Virus record (IMG/VR): IMGVR_UViG_3300044633_001253
Coordinates: 1 to 29,690 of that record
DNA length: 29,690 bases
Reading direction: 5' to 3' (one strand)
Source: a virus
Shown here: positions 1 through 29,660 of the stretch, in pieces
Position numbering within the stretch: the first letter of the stretch is position 1
Layout: the number at the start of each line of letters is the position of its first letter
Made by a program: the position numbers and the translations under genes
Notes under the pieces: model-generated
Told to the model about the DNA's origin: nothing
The model's input: only the letters and a program-made list of their open reading frames with translations
Database searches by the model: none

Positions 1-51
1 AATATAGATTTATCGACCGAACACAGAATGGGTTATTTGACAGATATATGA
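1..51 (+). CDS. 3' end of an upstream gene (partial)
   Basis: Frame 1 is open from the first base and encodes NIDLSTEHRMGYLTDI before a TGA at 49-51. That stop overlaps the ATG of the next gene as ATGA, the commonest gene junction in this window, which is why I read it as a real gene end. Too little is present to name a product. It may belong to the same surface-modification or tail module as the oxygenase that follows. Confidence 0.5.
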   Translation, partial: NIDLSTEHRMGYLTDI

Positions 52-611
52 AATTATATTCATATGATATAACAGAATTTAATTTTAAAGAACAATTACA
101 AACTGTTTTAAACACATCTAATTTAGATAATTTGGATGAAAATAAAGACATAGAGCGACTATATTCAGATTATCTATCAGATAAACAGTTTTTAGATATG
201 TATGTACAGTTTATAAGAAAATATATCACAGAGTTGTATAATGGTGTTATAGCATATCAAACTAAACCAGTGTGTAGATTAGTATATAAAAATAAATTAA
301 ATATGCATAAACTTCATAAAGACAAGTGGTATAGAAAAAATACGATTTATAGTGATATGCAGATAGATAATATTTTTTTACCATTTACAAATGCTTTTGA
401 TACAAACACAATTTGGACTGAATCAGTTGAAGACAGTCACGATTTTTCTCCGATAAAATGTGATTACGGTCAATTTGTACATTGGGATGGTTGCAATTTA
501 CTTCACGGTAATAAATTCAACAATACTAACAAAACAAGACTGAGTATAGATTTTAGAGTTTATAAATATAAAGATTTATTACACCCAGATTATTCTTTAT
601 TGAATTTTTAG
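48..611 (+). CDS. 2OG-Fe(II) oxygenase-like protein (StrG/phytanoyl-type)
   Basis: A 187-aa protein with the layout of phage 2-oxoglutarate/Fe(II)-dependent oxygenases. His90-x-Asp92 (LHKDKWY) and distal His153 (LLHGN) would hold iron, and Arg164 (TRLSIDFRV) would bind 2-oxoglutarate. Between them lies the typical stretch IFLPFTNAFDTNTIWTES. Family members hydroxylate small molecules, sugars or protein side chains; the substrate here is unknown. The gene overlaps the preceding stop by ATGA and precedes the glycine-rich adhesin gene, so modification of a glycan or virion component is a guess. The reading frame is open upstream to base 3, but the ATGA junction supports the start at 48. Confidence 0.72.
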   Translation: MKLYSYDITEFNFKEQLQTVLNTSNLDNLDENKDIERLYSDYLSDKQFLDMYVQFIRKYITELYNGVIAYQTKPVCRLVYKNKLNMHKLHKDKWYRKNTIYSDMQIDNIFLPFTNAFDTNTIWTESVEDSHDFSPIKCDYGQFVHWDGCNLLHGNKFNNTNKTRLSIDFRVYKYKDLLHPDYSLLNF

Positions 612-621
612 AAGAAAAAAC

Positions 622-636
622 TATTTATAATAGAAT
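622..636 (+). promoter_or_regulatory. Candidate late promoter motif (TATTTATA)
   Basis: TATTTATAATAGAAT directly precedes the ATG at 637. The first 13 bases recur identically, at the same 7-nt distance from the ATG, before the gene at 1945, and the octamer TATTTATA recurs before the genes starting at 19159 and 19611. No convincing -35 box lies upstream. It could be a phage-specific late promoter giving a leaderless mRNA; an embedded TATAAT is an alternative sigma70 -10 reading. Confidence 0.5.
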
Positions 637-1899
637 ATGGCAACTTTAATATCAGCATTAAGTACCTTAACAGGCAGTATAAACAATAATACAAATGTTT
701 TTCCCGTTTTGGATCAGACAATAAGTTCATCAGCAAATAGAAATAAAAAAGCTAGAATAACTACACACAATTTATTTTATAGCAATAATACTACAGTAGG
801 CAGTTTAAGCAGTTACGACAATTATTTTGGCACAGGTACAGACGGTGATTGTACCATAAGCAGTAGTGCGCAAATAAGTTCATCCACATCACCCGCTGGA
901 TTAAACAATATCAGCCGTGAATTTGGTGATATAATTGTAAAGAATTTTAAAAATTTAACCATTAACGGCGGCTTATTATTTAGTCCATTACGAGCTTGTA
1001 GAGGTTTGGTTATATATTGTACAGGCGACTTGACCGTGAACGGTACTATAAGTATGACTGGTAAAGGTGGTGGTGTTGGTTCCAAAATTGCTGCACCTAT
1101 TGGAATTGCTTCAAGCACCGATTCAAGATATGATTTGGTGGATGCTACACTATATTTCAATAATTTTTCATCAAGTGCCACTGGAACTATTGGTCATATG
1201 AATTGGGCGCCTAGTGGCAGTGCTTGGTTTAGCAACTATAAGATACGAGTGCCATTGAGTGGAAGTGTTGCTGGGGGGGCCGGTGGAATTCAACAAACTA
1301 GTACTCCCTTCACTGGAATTGGTGGAACTGGAACGGCTGGTATATTTTGTTGTGGAGGCGGAGGTGGAGGTGGGGCTAGTAACTATTACAATGGTGGTGC
1401 CGGAGGAAGAGGTACAATATTTTCTGCGGGAGGCGGAGGTGGAGGTTCTGGAAATGGCCCTGGTGGACAAACAGGAGGTGGCGGAGGAGCTGGTTGGGCT
1501 GGAATTCAAGGTGGTGGCGGCGGAGGAGCTGGATCTCCAACAGGCCCAGCTGGATCAGGTCGTAATGATCCACCTGCAACTAATGGTGGAATTGGTGTCG
1601 GCGGATTGTTAATACTTATTGTAAGAGGAAATATTACAATAAATGGCACTGTTTCAAATAACGGATCAGCTGGTGGAAATGGTGGAGGACCAAGTGGAGG
1701 CGCTGGTAGTGGAGCGGGTGGGGGTGGTAGTGGAGGTGGTAGAACCATAATAATTTATGGTGGTACATACACTAACGCTGGAAGTGTTGTTGCGAGCGGT
1801 GGTAGTGCTGGTGTTGGTCCTGGATATGGTCCAGGCGGCGGTTCTCCTGGCGGTGCAGGTGGAGCGGGTGCTATAACTCTGAGAAAAGTACATATTTAA
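637..1899 (+). CDS. Glycine-rich adhesin / tail-fibre tip-like protein
   Basis: A 420-aa protein. Residues 1 to about 200 are rich in Ser/Thr/Asn with beta-strand repeats such as NLTINGGL and DLTVNGTISMTG. Residues from about 205 to the end are dominated by glycine tracts (GGGGGGG, GGAGGAG) broken by short hydrophobic strands (LLILIVRGNITINGTVSN, RTIIIYGGTYTNAG). The strand 'NGT(V/I)S' theme recurs three times. Glycine-rich C-terminal blocks of this kind resemble polyglycine-II receptor-binding tips such as the gp38 adhesin of T4-like phage S16, but I see no direct homology. No signal peptide is visible. A candidate late promoter precedes it. Strongly G-biased DNA at 1260-1880 creates long spurious reverse frames. 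A run of seven G lies at 1273-1279. Confidence 0.65.
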   Translation: MATLISALSTLTGSINNNTNVFPVLDQTISSSANRNKKARITTHNLFYSNNTTVGSLSSYDNYFGTGTDGDCTISSSAQISSSTSPAGLNNISREFGDIIVKNFKNLTINGGLLFSPLRACRGLVIYCTGDLTVNGTISMTGKGGGVGSKIAAPIGIASSTDSRYDLVDATLYFNNFSSSATGTIGHMNWAPSGSAWFSNYKIRVPLSGSVAGGAGGIQQTSTPFTGIGGTGTAGIFCCGGGGGGGASNYYNGGAGGRGTIFSAGGGGGGSGNGPGGQTGGGGGAGWAGIQGGGGGGAGSPTGPAGSGRNDPPATNGGIGVGGLLILIVRGNITINGTVSNNGSAGGNGGGPSGGAGSGAGGGGSGGGRTIIIYGGTYTNAGSVVASGGSAGVGPGYGPGGGSPGGAGGAGAITLRKVHI

Positions 1900-1929: not shown

Positions 1930-1944
1930 TATTTATAATAGACT
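1930..1944 (+). promoter_or_regulatory. Candidate late promoter motif (TATTTATA)
   Basis: TATTTATAATAGACT directly before the ATG at 1945, sharing its first 13 bases and its spacing with the copy before the adhesin gene. It lies in the short gap between two + strand virion-type genes, consistent with a promoter or a start-proximal regulatory element. Confidence 0.5.
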
Positions 1945-2274
1945 ATGAAAGACACAATAATAATACATAATATTCACGACAAAGCGAGTAGAGAATTTGT
2001 TGCTGCATATGGTAACAGAAACGACGTTACTGTATTAGAAGACGATGGATTAAAAGTTCGTCTAGCATTTCCTTATATCAGCGCATTTCCTACTGTTGTA
2101 ATACCCACACCATCTTATGAAGATACAGATGAAAATGGGACAGTAACCACAATCGAAGGTAGCATTGAATATTTGAGAGCACCTGAAGATTGGAACAAAG
2201 TACAAGAACGGATTGATTATTGGGAAAACAAAGTGCCAAATTGGAAACAAACTGATAGCAGATATCAAGCTTAA
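1945..2274 (+). CDS. Hypothetical tail-associated protein
   Basis: A 109-aa soluble protein not recognised by name. It starts with a compact alpha/beta pattern (DTIIIHNIHDKASREFVAAY, then VTVLED), which is thioredoxin-like in flavour, followed by FPYISAFPTVVIPTPSYED and a C-terminal helix with Trp and charged residues. It sits 5 nt before a conserved tail-linked small protein and behind the adhesin gene, with its own candidate late promoter. A role in tail-fibre structure or assembly is inferred from position only. Confidence 0.6.
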   Translation: MKDTIIIHNIHDKASREFVAAYGNRNDVTVLEDDGLKVRLAFPYISAFPTVVIPTPSYEDTDENGTVTTIEGSIEYLRAPEDWNKVQERIDYWENKVPNWKQTDSRYQA

Positions 2275-2279
2275 AAAAT

Positions 2280-2657
2280 ATGAATCAACCAACAATTACT
2301 TGGAAAGTAACAAACCTAGACTGTTACCCAAAATACGATCAAGAAACCGACGTTGTATTTACTGTACACTGGGACTGTTTGGGCAACATTGTGGTTGCTA
2401 CAGGTAGTTTGAGTGGCAGTGTATATAACAGTAGATTATACGGTACCACAGGTGTACAATACCACAGTGGTTCAGCATTTATACCATATGATCAATTGAC
2501 TGAGAATGTGGTATTGGGATGGACATTTGATAGTATGGGTACTGGTAGCAAAGCTAATATTGAAGCTGGTGCTATATCTAGTTTATATACTCAAATAAAT
2601 CCTCCGGTGGTTCAACCGCCATTGCCTTGGGTAACAACAGGTTCTGTAAGTAATTAA
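2280..2657 (+). CDS. DUF7936-like phage protein
   Basis: A 125-aa protein whose pattern (TWKVTNLDCYPKYDQETDVV, FTVHW, FIPYDQLTENVVLGW, then INPPVVQPPLPW) matches a small protein family widespread in phages of T4-like and cyanophage type that I know as DUF7936; the family name is from memory. Family members lie among tail-fibre and baseplate genes and probably form a beta-rich virion or assembly component. The late-block location agrees. Start chosen at the only upstream ATG, 5 nt after the previous stop. Confidence 0.65.
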   Translation: MNQPTITWKVTNLDCYPKYDQETDVVFTVHWDCLGNIVVATGSLSGSVYNSRLYGTTGVQYHSGSAFIPYDQLTENVVLGWTFDSMGTGSKANIEAGAISSLYTQINPPVVQPPLPWVTTGSVSN

Positions 2658-2660
2658 AAT

Positions 2661-2692
2661 AATAACTATTGTATAGTAGTGTTCTAGTTATT
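2661..2692. other. Inverted repeat between late genes
   Basis: AATAACTA (2661-2668) and TAGTTATT (2685-2692) form a perfect 8-bp, AT-only stem with a 16-nt loop in the 53-nt gap between 2657 and 2711. There is no T-run on the + strand, so it is a poor terminator. It could be an operator or weak processing site. Confidence 0.3.
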
Positions 2693-2710
2693 TAACAAAG
2701 TTATAAACAT

Positions 2711-2899
2711 ATGGAAGAACAAAAACAAATTAATTTATCAGATCTCACATTAGTTGAATTGAAAGCTTTTGCTTACGATGAAGTTGTTAAGTTAAACTTT
2801 TCACAAAACAATTTGAGAATTATCAACCAAGAACTTTCTGCCCGTCAACAACAAGGTGTGGAAAATGCGTCACCAGTAACAACTGCAACAAAACAATAA
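2711..2899 (+). CDS. Small conserved phage protein, paralogue 1
   Basis: A 62-aa protein built around the core LSDLTLVELKAFAYDEVVKL followed by QNNLRIINQELSARQQQ. It is clearly paralogous to its neighbour at 2910 and belongs to a small phage family with the pattern 'ELKALAYDxxxxIExxQNNLxxINQEI' that I have seen near tail genes. Two helices are predicted, probably an antiparallel hairpin or coiled coil, with a polar, disordered tail. Function is unknown; oligomeric virion accessory or assembly factor is inference. Confidence 0.62.
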   Translation: MEEQKQINLSDLTLVELKAFAYDEVVKLNFSQNNLRIINQELSARQQQGVENASPVTTATKQ

Positions 2900-2909
2900 T
2901 ATAAGTTAT

Positions 2910-3104
2910 ATGCAAAAACAAATATCTGATTTCACCGTGGTTGAATTGAAAAGTTTGGCATACGATGAACTTGCAAAAATCGAATTGGCACAAAATAACA
3001 TTCGAATTTTGAATCAAGAAATCACCAATCGTATACAATCTCAATCACAACAAACAACTGGTGATTTTACTAGCCCCCCCACCGCTAATACCGAAACCGT
3101 TTAA
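2910..3104 (+). CDS. Small conserved phage protein, paralogue 2
   Basis: A 64-aa paralogue of the preceding gene: ISDFTVVELKSLAYDELAKI then QNNIRILNQEITNR, with a Gln/Thr/Pro-rich tail. Roughly half of the core positions match paralogue 1, so this is an older tandem duplication. The tail contains a run of seven C (3074-3080). Its stop codon lies in the palindrome GTTTAAAC and overlaps the stop of the converging - strand gene, so the late block ends with no spacer and no visible terminator. Confidence 0.62.
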   Translation: MQKQISDFTVVELKSLAYDELAKIELAQNNIRILNQEITNRIQSQSQQTTGDFTSPPTANTETV

Positions 3105-3364
3105 ACGGGATCACCATAGATATTGAAGCCTTTGGGTGGTTGTGGTACCACTTCTTCTTCAATAGTCTTAATAGCATACAATTTGCTATCTAGTGGGGCT
3201 AGTCTATATTCACACTTGATTTTGGTTTCTTTGAAATAAGATTCAAGCGCTTCAGTGATACTTGGATGAATTATTTTGCGGGTATCATTCACAAGAGTCC
3301 ATCTATCGCCAGGTGGTACTCTGGTAGCAATTAGTTCATTGTGTTCTGTAATTTTTGTAGCCAT
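3101..3364 (-). CDS. Hypothetical protein, last gene of the ligase operon
   Basis: An 87-aa soluble protein, not recognised. It is rich in alternating charged and hydrophobic residues (RWTLVNDTRKIIHPSITEAL, then CEYRLAPLDSKLYAIKTIEE) and ends in VVPQPPKGFNIYGDPV. It is the last gene of the long leftward operon headed by the DNA ligase, 6 nt after its upstream neighbour. Its TAA at 3103-3101 overlaps the converging late-gene stop. Confidence 0.6.
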   Translation of the reverse strand: MATKITEHNELIATRVPPGDRWTLVNDTRKIIHPSITEALESYFKETKIKCEYRLAPLDSKLYAIKTIEEEVVPQPPKGFNIYGDPV

Positions 3365-28309: not shown

Positions 28310-28449
28310 CTGCTTGGACGTACCAAACTGCTTAAATCTGGTACAGTATAACCTTGTTTAATTAGTTCACGGGTTTGTTTTACAAGTCGGTCAAAATAAG
28401 CCAACTTCATCTTAATTTCTTCTTTTTCTTTCTTGGTCTGTTTTTTCAT
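28306..28449 (-). CDS. 47-aa basic miniprotein
   Basis: Encodes MKKQTKKEKEEIKMKLAYFD, RLVKQTRELIKQGYTVPDLS, SLVRPSR: a Lys-rich helix. Its ATG overlaps the thymidylate synthase stop as ATGA, and its stop overlaps the next ATG the same way, which is strong evidence for a real coupled gene. Function unknown. Confidence 0.66.
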   Translation of the reverse strand: MKKQTKKEKEEIKMKLAYFDRLVKQTRELIKQGYTVPDLSSLVRPSR

Positions 28450-29660
28450 ACAGCTACATCAAACTTAATTGTTGGATGAAACTCATAATCTAATAATTTG
28501 ATATCATCATACTTGAAATCAAACAGTGATTTAACTTCTGGATTCAACCAAACTCTAGGTAGTTTCTTTGGTTCTCTAGTTAATTGTAACTTCAATCCGT
28601 CAATGTGATTTACATAAATATGCGTATCACCCATTGAATGCGTAAACATACCTGGAACCATATTAACAGTTTGCGCAATCATAGCAGTTAACAGTGCATA
28701 ACTTGCAATATTAAATGGCTTTCCAAGTGCAGTGTCCACGGATCTTTGGTAGAGCAAACAATTCAAACGACGGGTTGGAATATTGTCCTCGTTCAGTTTT
28801 TGAATGATCCACACATCAGATTTAGGAAGATTTACAGGACCAACTTGTTTCTGTAAAATCTCAACTCTCTCTTCCAAAGTCAATTCTTCTGTATGAAAGT
28901 GGAAAAGACAATGACAGGGTGGCAATGCGCAATGATCTACCCAGTGTGGATGCCATGCACTCACAATCATACGACGATCATCTGGATTGTTTTTTAACTT
29001 TTCAAGAACTTTTGTAATTTGATCAATTCTTCCTAGAAAAGTTAATGGTTCATCTCCACAATACGTTCCCTTTGTTCCTAAAGATTTGAATTTTGGCATC
29101 GTTGATGGATCAGTTTTATCAACAATTGTAAAAAATGGAAAATCCCGCCACATTCTACCATAAGTTCCTTCACCCAATTCACCCCATTCCTTAGCAAATT
29201 CAACATCGTTTTTGATTCGGTCAATGAATTTATTTTGTTTTTCCTGTATTGATTTCTTTATACTATCAACCACATCAAAATCTTCTGGTTCTAACTTGGA
29301 AGCCAATACTCGTTTTTCTTGATTAGACAACAATAATTCATCTGCTAACATTAATCCACCCAATCTTGGTTTGACTTTCTGATAACGAGAAAATGCCCAT
29401 TCATTCCAAATACGAACATTGTTATCAACCAGATACTTGATGTTGGTATCTCCACTGATAAACCAAAGCAATTCGTGAACAATTGCTGGCCAATGAACTT
29501 TTTTGGTGGTTAATAGAGGAAATGCGTTTAGATCCACATTGTATTTGGCTTGAGCACCAAAAATACCAATGGTATCTACACCAGTTCGGTTCTTTTTAAG
29601 TCTTCCGTTTGTCAAAATATCATTGACAATTCTGAAATATTCTGTGTCTACTTTGTTCAT
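28446..29660 (-). CDS. thyA: Thymidylate synthase with large insertions
   Basis: A 404-aa ThyA, converting dUMP to dTMP with methylene-tetrahydrofolate. Core motifs are present: the N-terminal KKNRTGVDTIGIFG loop, catalytic Cys249 in LPPCHCLFHFH, CLLYQRSVDTALGKPFNIAS, and GDTHIYVNHIDGLKLQLTRE. Against the usual 264 aa it has three insertions: about 67 residues after IWNEWAF (91-157, helical and charged), about 30 at 176-208, and about 40 at 257-298. Reading is continuous, with no sign of an intron or intein. It heads an operon of eleven genes. A -10 box (TATACT, 29673-29668) lies 7 nt before the ATG. Confidence 0.94.
   Translation of the reverse strand: MNKVDTEYFRIVNDILTNGRLKKNRTGVDTIGIFGAQAKYNVDLNAFPLLTTKKVHWPAIVHELLWFISGDTNIKYLVDNNVRIWNEWAFSRYQKVKPRLGGLMLADELLLSNQEKRVLASKLEPEDFDVVDSIKKSIQEKQNKFIDRIKNDVEFAKEWGELGEGTYGRMWRDFPFFTIVDKTDPSTMPKFKSLGTKGTYCGDEPLTFLGRIDQITKVLEKLKNNPDDRRMIVSAWHPHWVDHCALPPCHCLFHFHTEELTLEERVEILQKQVGPVNLPKSDVWIIQKLNEDNIPTRRLNCLLYQRSVDTALGKPFNIASYALLTAMIAQTVNMVPGMFTHSMGDTHIYVNHIDGLKLQLTREPKKLPRVWLNPEVKSLFDFKYDDIKLLDYEFHPTIKFDVAV

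Follow-up and report, generated by a model that had tools for sequence, protein, structure and literature searches.

Does the glycine-rich gene at positions 637-1899 (plus strand) of a 29,690-base virus record encode a phage adhesin with a glycine lattice and, if so, how might such a protein be held on the virion? The record is a single contig and was analysed over its full length, which is referred to here as the window. Its genes fit a large tailed phage and include a DNA ligase, a thymidylate synthase and a T4-type RNA ligase, the listed matches of which (27-31% identity) are from phages of Vibrio, Tenacibaculum and Campylobacter. The gene in question is an uninterrupted open reading frame (ORF) that starts with ATG, encodes 420 amino acids and has exactly the bounds given in the original prediction. 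Comparison with two relatives yielded dN/dS ratios of 0.20 and 0.18 for the whole gene, 0.15-0.25 within the glycine part and 0.13-0.25 across all regions, and the reading frame is, by this measure, under purifying selection; because the ratios are low in every region, positive selection is not claimed.

Glycine accounts for 42% of residues 205-420 (216 amino acids), compared with 2-9% in the seven other ORFs of the window that were measured, and the longest glycine runs comprise 7, 6, 6 and 5 residues. The stretch had been described as about 215 residues of mostly glycine; the length was right, but it is glycine-rich rather than mostly glycine. The short hydrophobic strands that were said to interrupt it are present (LLILIV, TIIIY and AITLRKV). 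The claim that repeated NGTxS strands lie ahead of the glycine part has to be dropped, because only two copies exist, NGTIS (residue 135) before and NGTVS (residue 336) inside the glycine part, so that no repeat precedes this region. The first observation on the gene was partly confirmed and stands with these corrections.

The protein was modelled with AF2 as a monomer, using a 35-sequence alignment. The model has a mean pLDDT of 68 and a pTM of 0.70, with values below 50 at residues 1-64, 83-96 and 147-201, and it is taken to be unreliable at residues 1-64 and 147-201. Strands were predicted in sets of three at residues 99-115, 123-139, 324-340 and 369-385, with further strands at residues 72-80 and 412-417. 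Hardly any strands were assigned to the intervening glycine segments, for which the pLDDT averaged over ten residues is 62-96 (mostly 85-96 in the glycine runs from residue 241 on). The AF2 model of a distant relative, L021 (38-sequence alignment), has a mean pLDDT of 90.6 and a pTM of 0.90, and only residues 1-16 are below 50. Both monomer models contain an ordered glycine core that is free of strands, and thus disorder throughout, which would have been at odds with the original prediction, did not occur. The glycine segments of the models probably adopt polyglycine-II (PGII) geometry, of which the DSSP assignment shows only the absence of strands.

A stem in the form of a beta-helix had been proposed to precede a glycine tip. 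Rungs of a beta-helix are indeed predicted, but in the models they alternate with glycine-rich fingers instead of making up a preceding stem. In the predicted order, a head of 60 residues at the N-terminus (637-816; pLDDT below 50), which is proposed to dock to the virion, is followed by the opening motif of the module (residues 62-70; 820-846), by rungs 1 and 2 (residues 98-145; 928-1071), which include the predicted strands at residues 99-139 and a single indel start in residues 101-140, and by a variable insert of low model confidence (residues 146-204; 1072-1248). Finger block 1 (residues 205-322; 1249-1602), rung 3 (residues 323-345; 1603-1671), finger 2 (residues 346-368; 1672-1740), rung 4 (residues 369-389; 1741-1803), finger 3 (residues 390-411; 1804-1869) and a closing strand (residues 412-420; 1870-1896) make up the glycine-rich part, all on the plus strand. 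These boundaries were drawn from the AF2 strands together with indels and, for finger block 1, composition and the shuffle control described below, or, for fingers 2 and 3, the alignment of close relatives.

The conservation pattern of the 35-member family alignment follows the same division. Rungs and glycine runs are constant, and the window protein has both in register with its relatives. Within residues 205-420, 37 of the 90 glycines occupy columns that are at least 90% glycine, and only 3 of the 126 other residues reach 90% identity. As a control, residues were shuffled within each of 34 sequences (the row of L029, with its Hint insert, was left out) and realigned; in 20 such controls 11.9 columns on average, and never more than 17, reached 90% glycine, compared with the real number of 37. 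As judged from these alignments, the glycine arrangement is more than compositional chance. Indels are found mainly at residues 211-250, 271-290, 311-320, 331-340, 351-360 and 391-400, while the blocks 251-270, 291-300, 321-330, 361-370 and 401-410 are free of them. Not all indels are at finger tips, since those at residues 331-340 sit within rung 3, where the window protein is without two residues common to most relatives. When three close relatives are aligned, 17 of 23 columns are identical and none is gapped in each of rungs 3 and 4, whereas in finger 1 only 56 of the 130 columns are identical and 34 are gapped. The comparison of sequence diversity suggested in the original prediction largely agrees with that prediction, in that it showed variable finger tips, with most indels, next to constant rungs and glycine runs, but the dN/dS ratios give no sign of diversifying selection.

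Foldseek against the PDB gave no significant match for either model; the top row was gp38 of phage PP01 for the window model (E 0.89) and the tail tip of mycobacteriophage Bxb1 for L021 (E 3.4), neither of which is significant. VIA-align was used to compare 10 chains with the window model and 17 with L021. The window model gave Z scores of 7.1 with 7dc5, 5.8 with 9v85 (125 residues, 4.8 A) and 2.6 with 9d93_Qb (68 residues, 34% identity), and L021 gave 7.4 with 4wa0, 6.6 with 3ml3, 6.4 with 6n2b, 5.5 with 3sze, 5.5 with 9v85 and 5.7 with 9d93_Qb (115 residues, 26% identity). Both lists include two known glycine-lattice phage proteins, PP01 gp38, for which a PGII lattice has been solved, and the Bxb1 tail tip. 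It should be noted, however, that unrelated beta-helix proteins (7dc5 and 4wa0) score at least as high as the phage proteins, so that the matches may reflect only a shared beta-helix arrangement. The structures 6F45 (phage S16), 7YFW (phage Pam3) and ALK were absent from the returns for both models, an absence that is uninformative. In BFVD, seven proteins matched the window model at E values up to 0.001, including one of an uncultured Caudovirales virus, and the best named matches were 'collagen-like' proteins of giant viruses (Pandoravirus, E 1.8e-7; Orpheovirus, E 9.4e-7). The fold is thus not exclusive to phage adhesins, and a similar combination of beta-helix and glycine segments may, to judge from the window model, exist in giant viruses.

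The window protein has no Pfam match at E values up to 1 and matches PHROG 13336 weakly (E 0.016). A close relative is encoded on a viral contig, L001, of a sister virus, which has five tandem glycine-rich paralogues (L001:3470-9188) that are preceded by a region of more than 30 kb in which most genes are fibre-like and some have Laminin_G or collagen-repeat matches. An alignment of six proteins (the window protein and those of L001) led to L010, with 41% identity over residues 57-152 (E 7e-17), where the module forms the middle of a 630-aa protein that adjoins a fibre-like ORF. A search with the L010 module retrieved 44 loci, including its own contig; on this sequence evidence, the family is widespread in metagenomic phages. 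In some relatives the module makes up the C-terminal portion of a larger, fibre-like protein. Ten other members were scanned, and one tail-spike and one neck-whisker match were found in PHROGs, one Laminin_G and one He_PIG match in Pfam. Several members match PHROG 13336, to which no function is assigned, at the beginning of the module (best E 3.4e-8), and most of these matches cover the opening segment only.

No curated Pfam model was found for the family, and none of the 35 members matched Gly_rich_2 (PF21722) at 0.01. The latter is also a glycine-rich domain and is present in 3 of the 41 genes directly downstream of adhesins, but the window protein does not match it at E values up to 1. No relative in a cultured phage was found in the phage collection with tblastn or megablast, searches that are weakened by the low-complexity filter of BLAST; the RNA ligase query did match phages, so the search of this collection works as such. 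Among 49 pattern matches in bacterial genomes, no relative was confirmed. A sequence search of the PDB gave nothing credible, and the best phmmer match (E 0.0032) was to the glycine-serine stretch of an antibody-type construct. As separate observations, L029:495-1931 contains a Hint/intein-like insert in the middle of the glycine-rich region (Pfam Vint, 5.4e-7; PT-HINT, 4.2e-5), and the contig of L001, on which L011 and L012 lie, carries more than 30 kb of consecutive, mostly fibre-like genes with tandem Laminin_G proteins, an unusually large set of surface proteins.

Solved examples of glycine-lattice adhesins are, to our knowledge, limited to a few phage proteins, a group to which this family, common in uncultured phages, would add. 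With gp38 of S16 and PP01 (6F45 and 9V85), to which the original prediction had likened the protein, the adhesin would share, if its AF2 models are right, a beta-helix, packed glycine runs and variable tip loops; in the portion available of the report on PP01 gp38 (9V85), a beta-helix, a lattice of glycine runs and variable tip loops are described (PMC12892980). The gp38 gene of S16 directly follows the fibre gene gp37, and split adhesins of the present family (see below) likewise follow a fibre gene. This order is not found in the window, where the upstream gene is the ORF at 48-611 and not a fibre gene. In contrast to S16 gp38 (249 aa), the window adhesin has 420 aa, a head of its own, an insert, and fingers that are separated by rungs. 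YFGDGSDG, the motif treated below, is not among the last 99 residues of S16 gp37, and tandem paralogues distinguish the present family from both gp38 proteins. No homology to S16 gp38 was found: hhalign of a family alignment against it gave a probability of 0.2 (E 0.34), and no gp38 was among the PDB sequence matches. The likeness to the S16 type of PGII tip is suggested by the ordered glycine core of the models and the weak, non-significant structural match to PP01 gp38, but not by sequence homology.

Pam3 gp24 (7YFW) has glycine-rich motifs stacked in a lattice, a conserved stem and a hypervariable distal tip, according to the part of the article available (PMC9608196). It differs from the adhesin in that it contains a TNF-like domain and no beta-helix in the available description and forms a trimer with the chaperone gp25 (PMC9608196), a comparison that is by description only. 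The hub of Alishewanella phage LSH1 is described, in the available part of its report, as a beta-helix with glycine-rich 'brush fingers' (PMC13243795). The Bxb1 brush (9D93) may resemble the adhesin, to judge from the Z scores for 9D93_Qb of 2.6 with the window model and 5.7 with L021, without a significant E value. The brushes of Bxb1 and LSH1 belong to siphovirus tail tips or hubs, whereas the proteins described here stand alone or are fused to fibres. By analogy, the protein would work like a PGII or brush adhesin; the sequence comparison did not place it in the gp38 family.

In single-chain members of the family, the module starts with YFGDGSDG or a near variant. The window protein has YFGTGTDG (residues 63-70), and its residues 62-70, NYFGTGTDG, align with the motif, with threonine at the position of the first aspartate. 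The search expression for the motif is matched by 22 of the 23 other single-chain loci, L044 being the exception. In 22 split loci, the adhesin ORF starts past the position of the motif, mostly as MANVTYTVPNKNGSYDGDM. In 20 of these, the motif forms the end of the ORF immediately upstream, at a gap of 9-22 nt or with a one-base overlap; in the other two (L055 and L056), one small ORF intervenes, and the fibre encoded ahead of it has NYLGDGSDG at its end. The tag is thus present upstream in 22 of 22 split loci and in 0 of 24 single-chain loci (the window included and up to three upstream ORFs considered), a comparison in which the classes were defined partly by the absence of the motif from the adhesin, so that the free variable is whether the fibre carries it. 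The loci are partly near-duplicates, and 17 of the 22 split fibres are left in a set with less than 90% identity. The upstream proteins of split loci are Ig-like (He_PIG in 17 of 22, TIG in 10 of 22). Joining of fibre and adhesin by readthrough or frameshifting was rejected, because neither the relative frame (0, 1 or 2) nor the gap (-1 to 22 nt) is constant among split loci. A DNA pattern scan found the motif at no fewer than 80 loci; among the matches listed, the glycine-rich module is encoded in cis in 61, in trans in nine and neither way in ten, and most of the nine, again among the matches listed, are contigs already found with the L010 module. A profile of the head, built from the six glycine-rich proteins of the window and L001, matched a 1425-aa fibre only at E 9.4, which is not significant, and gave no significant match to the other fibres of the sister virus. 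A search of the open-access literature found no paper describing the motif.

From this distribution we infer that the motif belongs to the adhesin module and can be supplied in trans by the fibre. Because the motif that opens the module is the C-terminus of the fibre in split loci, the fibre probably completes the first rung of the adhesin there, which would hold the adhesin at the tip. A more detailed version, for and against which we see the chances as evenly balanced, is that the last 9-17 or so residues of the fibre (YFGDGSDGxLxTTP) form the first segment of the adhesin beta-helix, that an untagged adhesin snaps onto a tagged fibre, that phages can switch between fused and split forms and swap cassettes without redesigning the fibre, and that the 2OG-type enzymes encoded after many of these adhesins may modify the complex. 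Exchange of cassettes is proposed because of the tandem arrays and the clean presence or absence of the gene at one site. The docking motif would be the new element in comparison with known systems. The tag might instead be a leftover of gene fission that does not dock anything. Single-chain and split versions do coexist, and thus fissions or fusions must have happened; nevertheless, such a leftover is improbable, as the tag is the most conserved nine-column stretch of otherwise divergent fibres (0.85 versus 0.43 elsewhere, a value reached by none of 117 other windows of the alignment), is encoded by 16 nucleotide versions in the 17 sequences below 90% identity, is found in all 22 split loci, and in the L021 model lies in residues 21-40, which have ten-residue mean pLDDT values of 97-98. 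The distribution of the motif in cis and in trans suggests a way in which fibres are joined to receptor-binding tips that are made as separate proteins, which bears on modular host recognition in laboratory phages, and YFGDGSDG offers a sequence handle for adhesin genes that escape alignment programs because glycine misleads them.

The gene is likely to encode a glycine-brush adhesin on the surface of the phage, and the first interpretation, which was partly supported, would be largely right as to kind. The head of about 60 residues would anchor the adhesin to the virion, YFGTGTDG would open the functional module, and five or six short rungs of beta-helix would form a spine. The glycine-rich fingers between rungs 2 and 3, between rungs 3 and 4 and between rung 4 and the end would fold back and be packed without strands, probably as polyglycine-II, with the variable finger tips facing the host surface, in a manner similar to gp38 of S16 and PP01, Pam3 gp24 and the Bxb1 brush domains. 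Relatives adjoin genes of Ig-like fibres or form C-terminal parts of fibre-like proteins, and from this context we infer virion location, receptor binding and a role in host range. A different function would be that of a decorating or head-fibre protein, which would form a coat on the capsid or tail and attach without specificity to polysaccharide, mucus or particles, and which would not determine host range. Five paralogues and many LamG or collagen-repeat proteins in one sister genome exceed what a single tail-fibre tip needs, and the glycine part is under purifying instead of diversifying selection (dN/dS 0.15-0.25). We regard decoration as unlikely, though as the most serious competitor, because the module follows an Ig-like fibre gene in split loci and is C-terminal in larger fibre-like proteins elsewhere, and because variation and indels are greatest at the finger tips. 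Far less probable still is a flexible linker or low-complexity filler that has no defined fold and is conserved in composition only; the high glycine content and the low confidence at residues 1-64 and 147-201 would fit such a filler, but the models of the window protein and L021, with pLDDT values of mostly 85-96 in the glycine runs from residue 241 and a mean of 90.6, respectively, and the shuffle control speak against a disordered glycine part, position-specific glycines exceed that control, and most runs and rungs are constant in length. A surface adhesin of the brush type thus remains the preferred explanation.

In the window, the adhesin gene belongs to a plus-strand block that comprises the ORFs at 48-611, 637-1899, 1945-2274 and 2280-2657 and two small genes, and most of the longer ORFs beyond it are on the minus strand. 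In a related contig, L182, precisely the adhesin gene is missing from this site: L182:1511-2137 aligns with window 1-628 (91%), and L182:2148-3509 aligns with window 1937-3316 (83%). L182 carries another glycine-rich ORF, which is truncated where the contig stops and lies about 1 kb 5' of the 88% identical copy of the 48-611 gene. In L001, the upstream neighbour of the adhesin is a further glycine-rich paralogue; a search of this record, which is possibly a fragment, did not reveal the 48-611 gene. The 109-aa gene at 1945-2274, directly 3' of the adhesin gene, also follows the adhesin in L001, and a related ORF follows a glycine-rich ORF in L182; its product is a candidate assembly partner. 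The gene at 2280-2657 encodes a DUF7936 protein (PF25590, 8.4e-22).

The 48-611 gene encodes 187 aa and, by its motifs (HKD ... LHGN ... TRLSIDFRV), a candidate 2OG-Fe(II) oxygenase, the pattern of which we take to be StrG-like; no significant Pfam or PDB match was found for it. Of the first proteins downstream of adhesins, 8 in 41 loci (the window excluded) match Pfam 2OG-FeII_Oxy_3 at E values up to 0.01. Among the first downstream ORFs, 29 encode 120-300 aa, and 20 of these contain a loose HxD/E...H...R/K pattern, as opposed to 8.9 in shuffled sequences and 1 of 33 first upstream ORFs. The 2OG-type enzymes beside adhesins are thus a lead from sequence patterns and not a finding.

A scan of the window for promoters and terminators yielded 14 promoter-like sites, compared with 13.4 expected, and no terminator. 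The sequence TATTTATAAT occurs in the window at 622-631 and 1930-1939 only, in both cases 5-6 nt before an ATG (637 and 1945), and a similar sequence, TATTTATTA, lies 7 nt ahead of two ATGs in L001. The count of two is not significant (1.6 expected); TATTTATAAT is possibly a late promoter or a recombination point. The gene before the 48-611 homologue in L182 (L182:887-1561) is presumably sulfotransferase-like, and the counterpart of its C-terminal end lies at window 1-51. ORFs related to L021:3823-4932 lie close to four adhesins; we assume that these neighbours, which are also found in L020, L045 and L050, are similar to flavin-dependent halogenases. At the other end of the window, the thymidylate synthase (28446-29660, minus strand; 404 aa) covers the whole 266-position Pfam profile and has extra stretches between the conserved blocks, at about residues 175-211 and 260-297.
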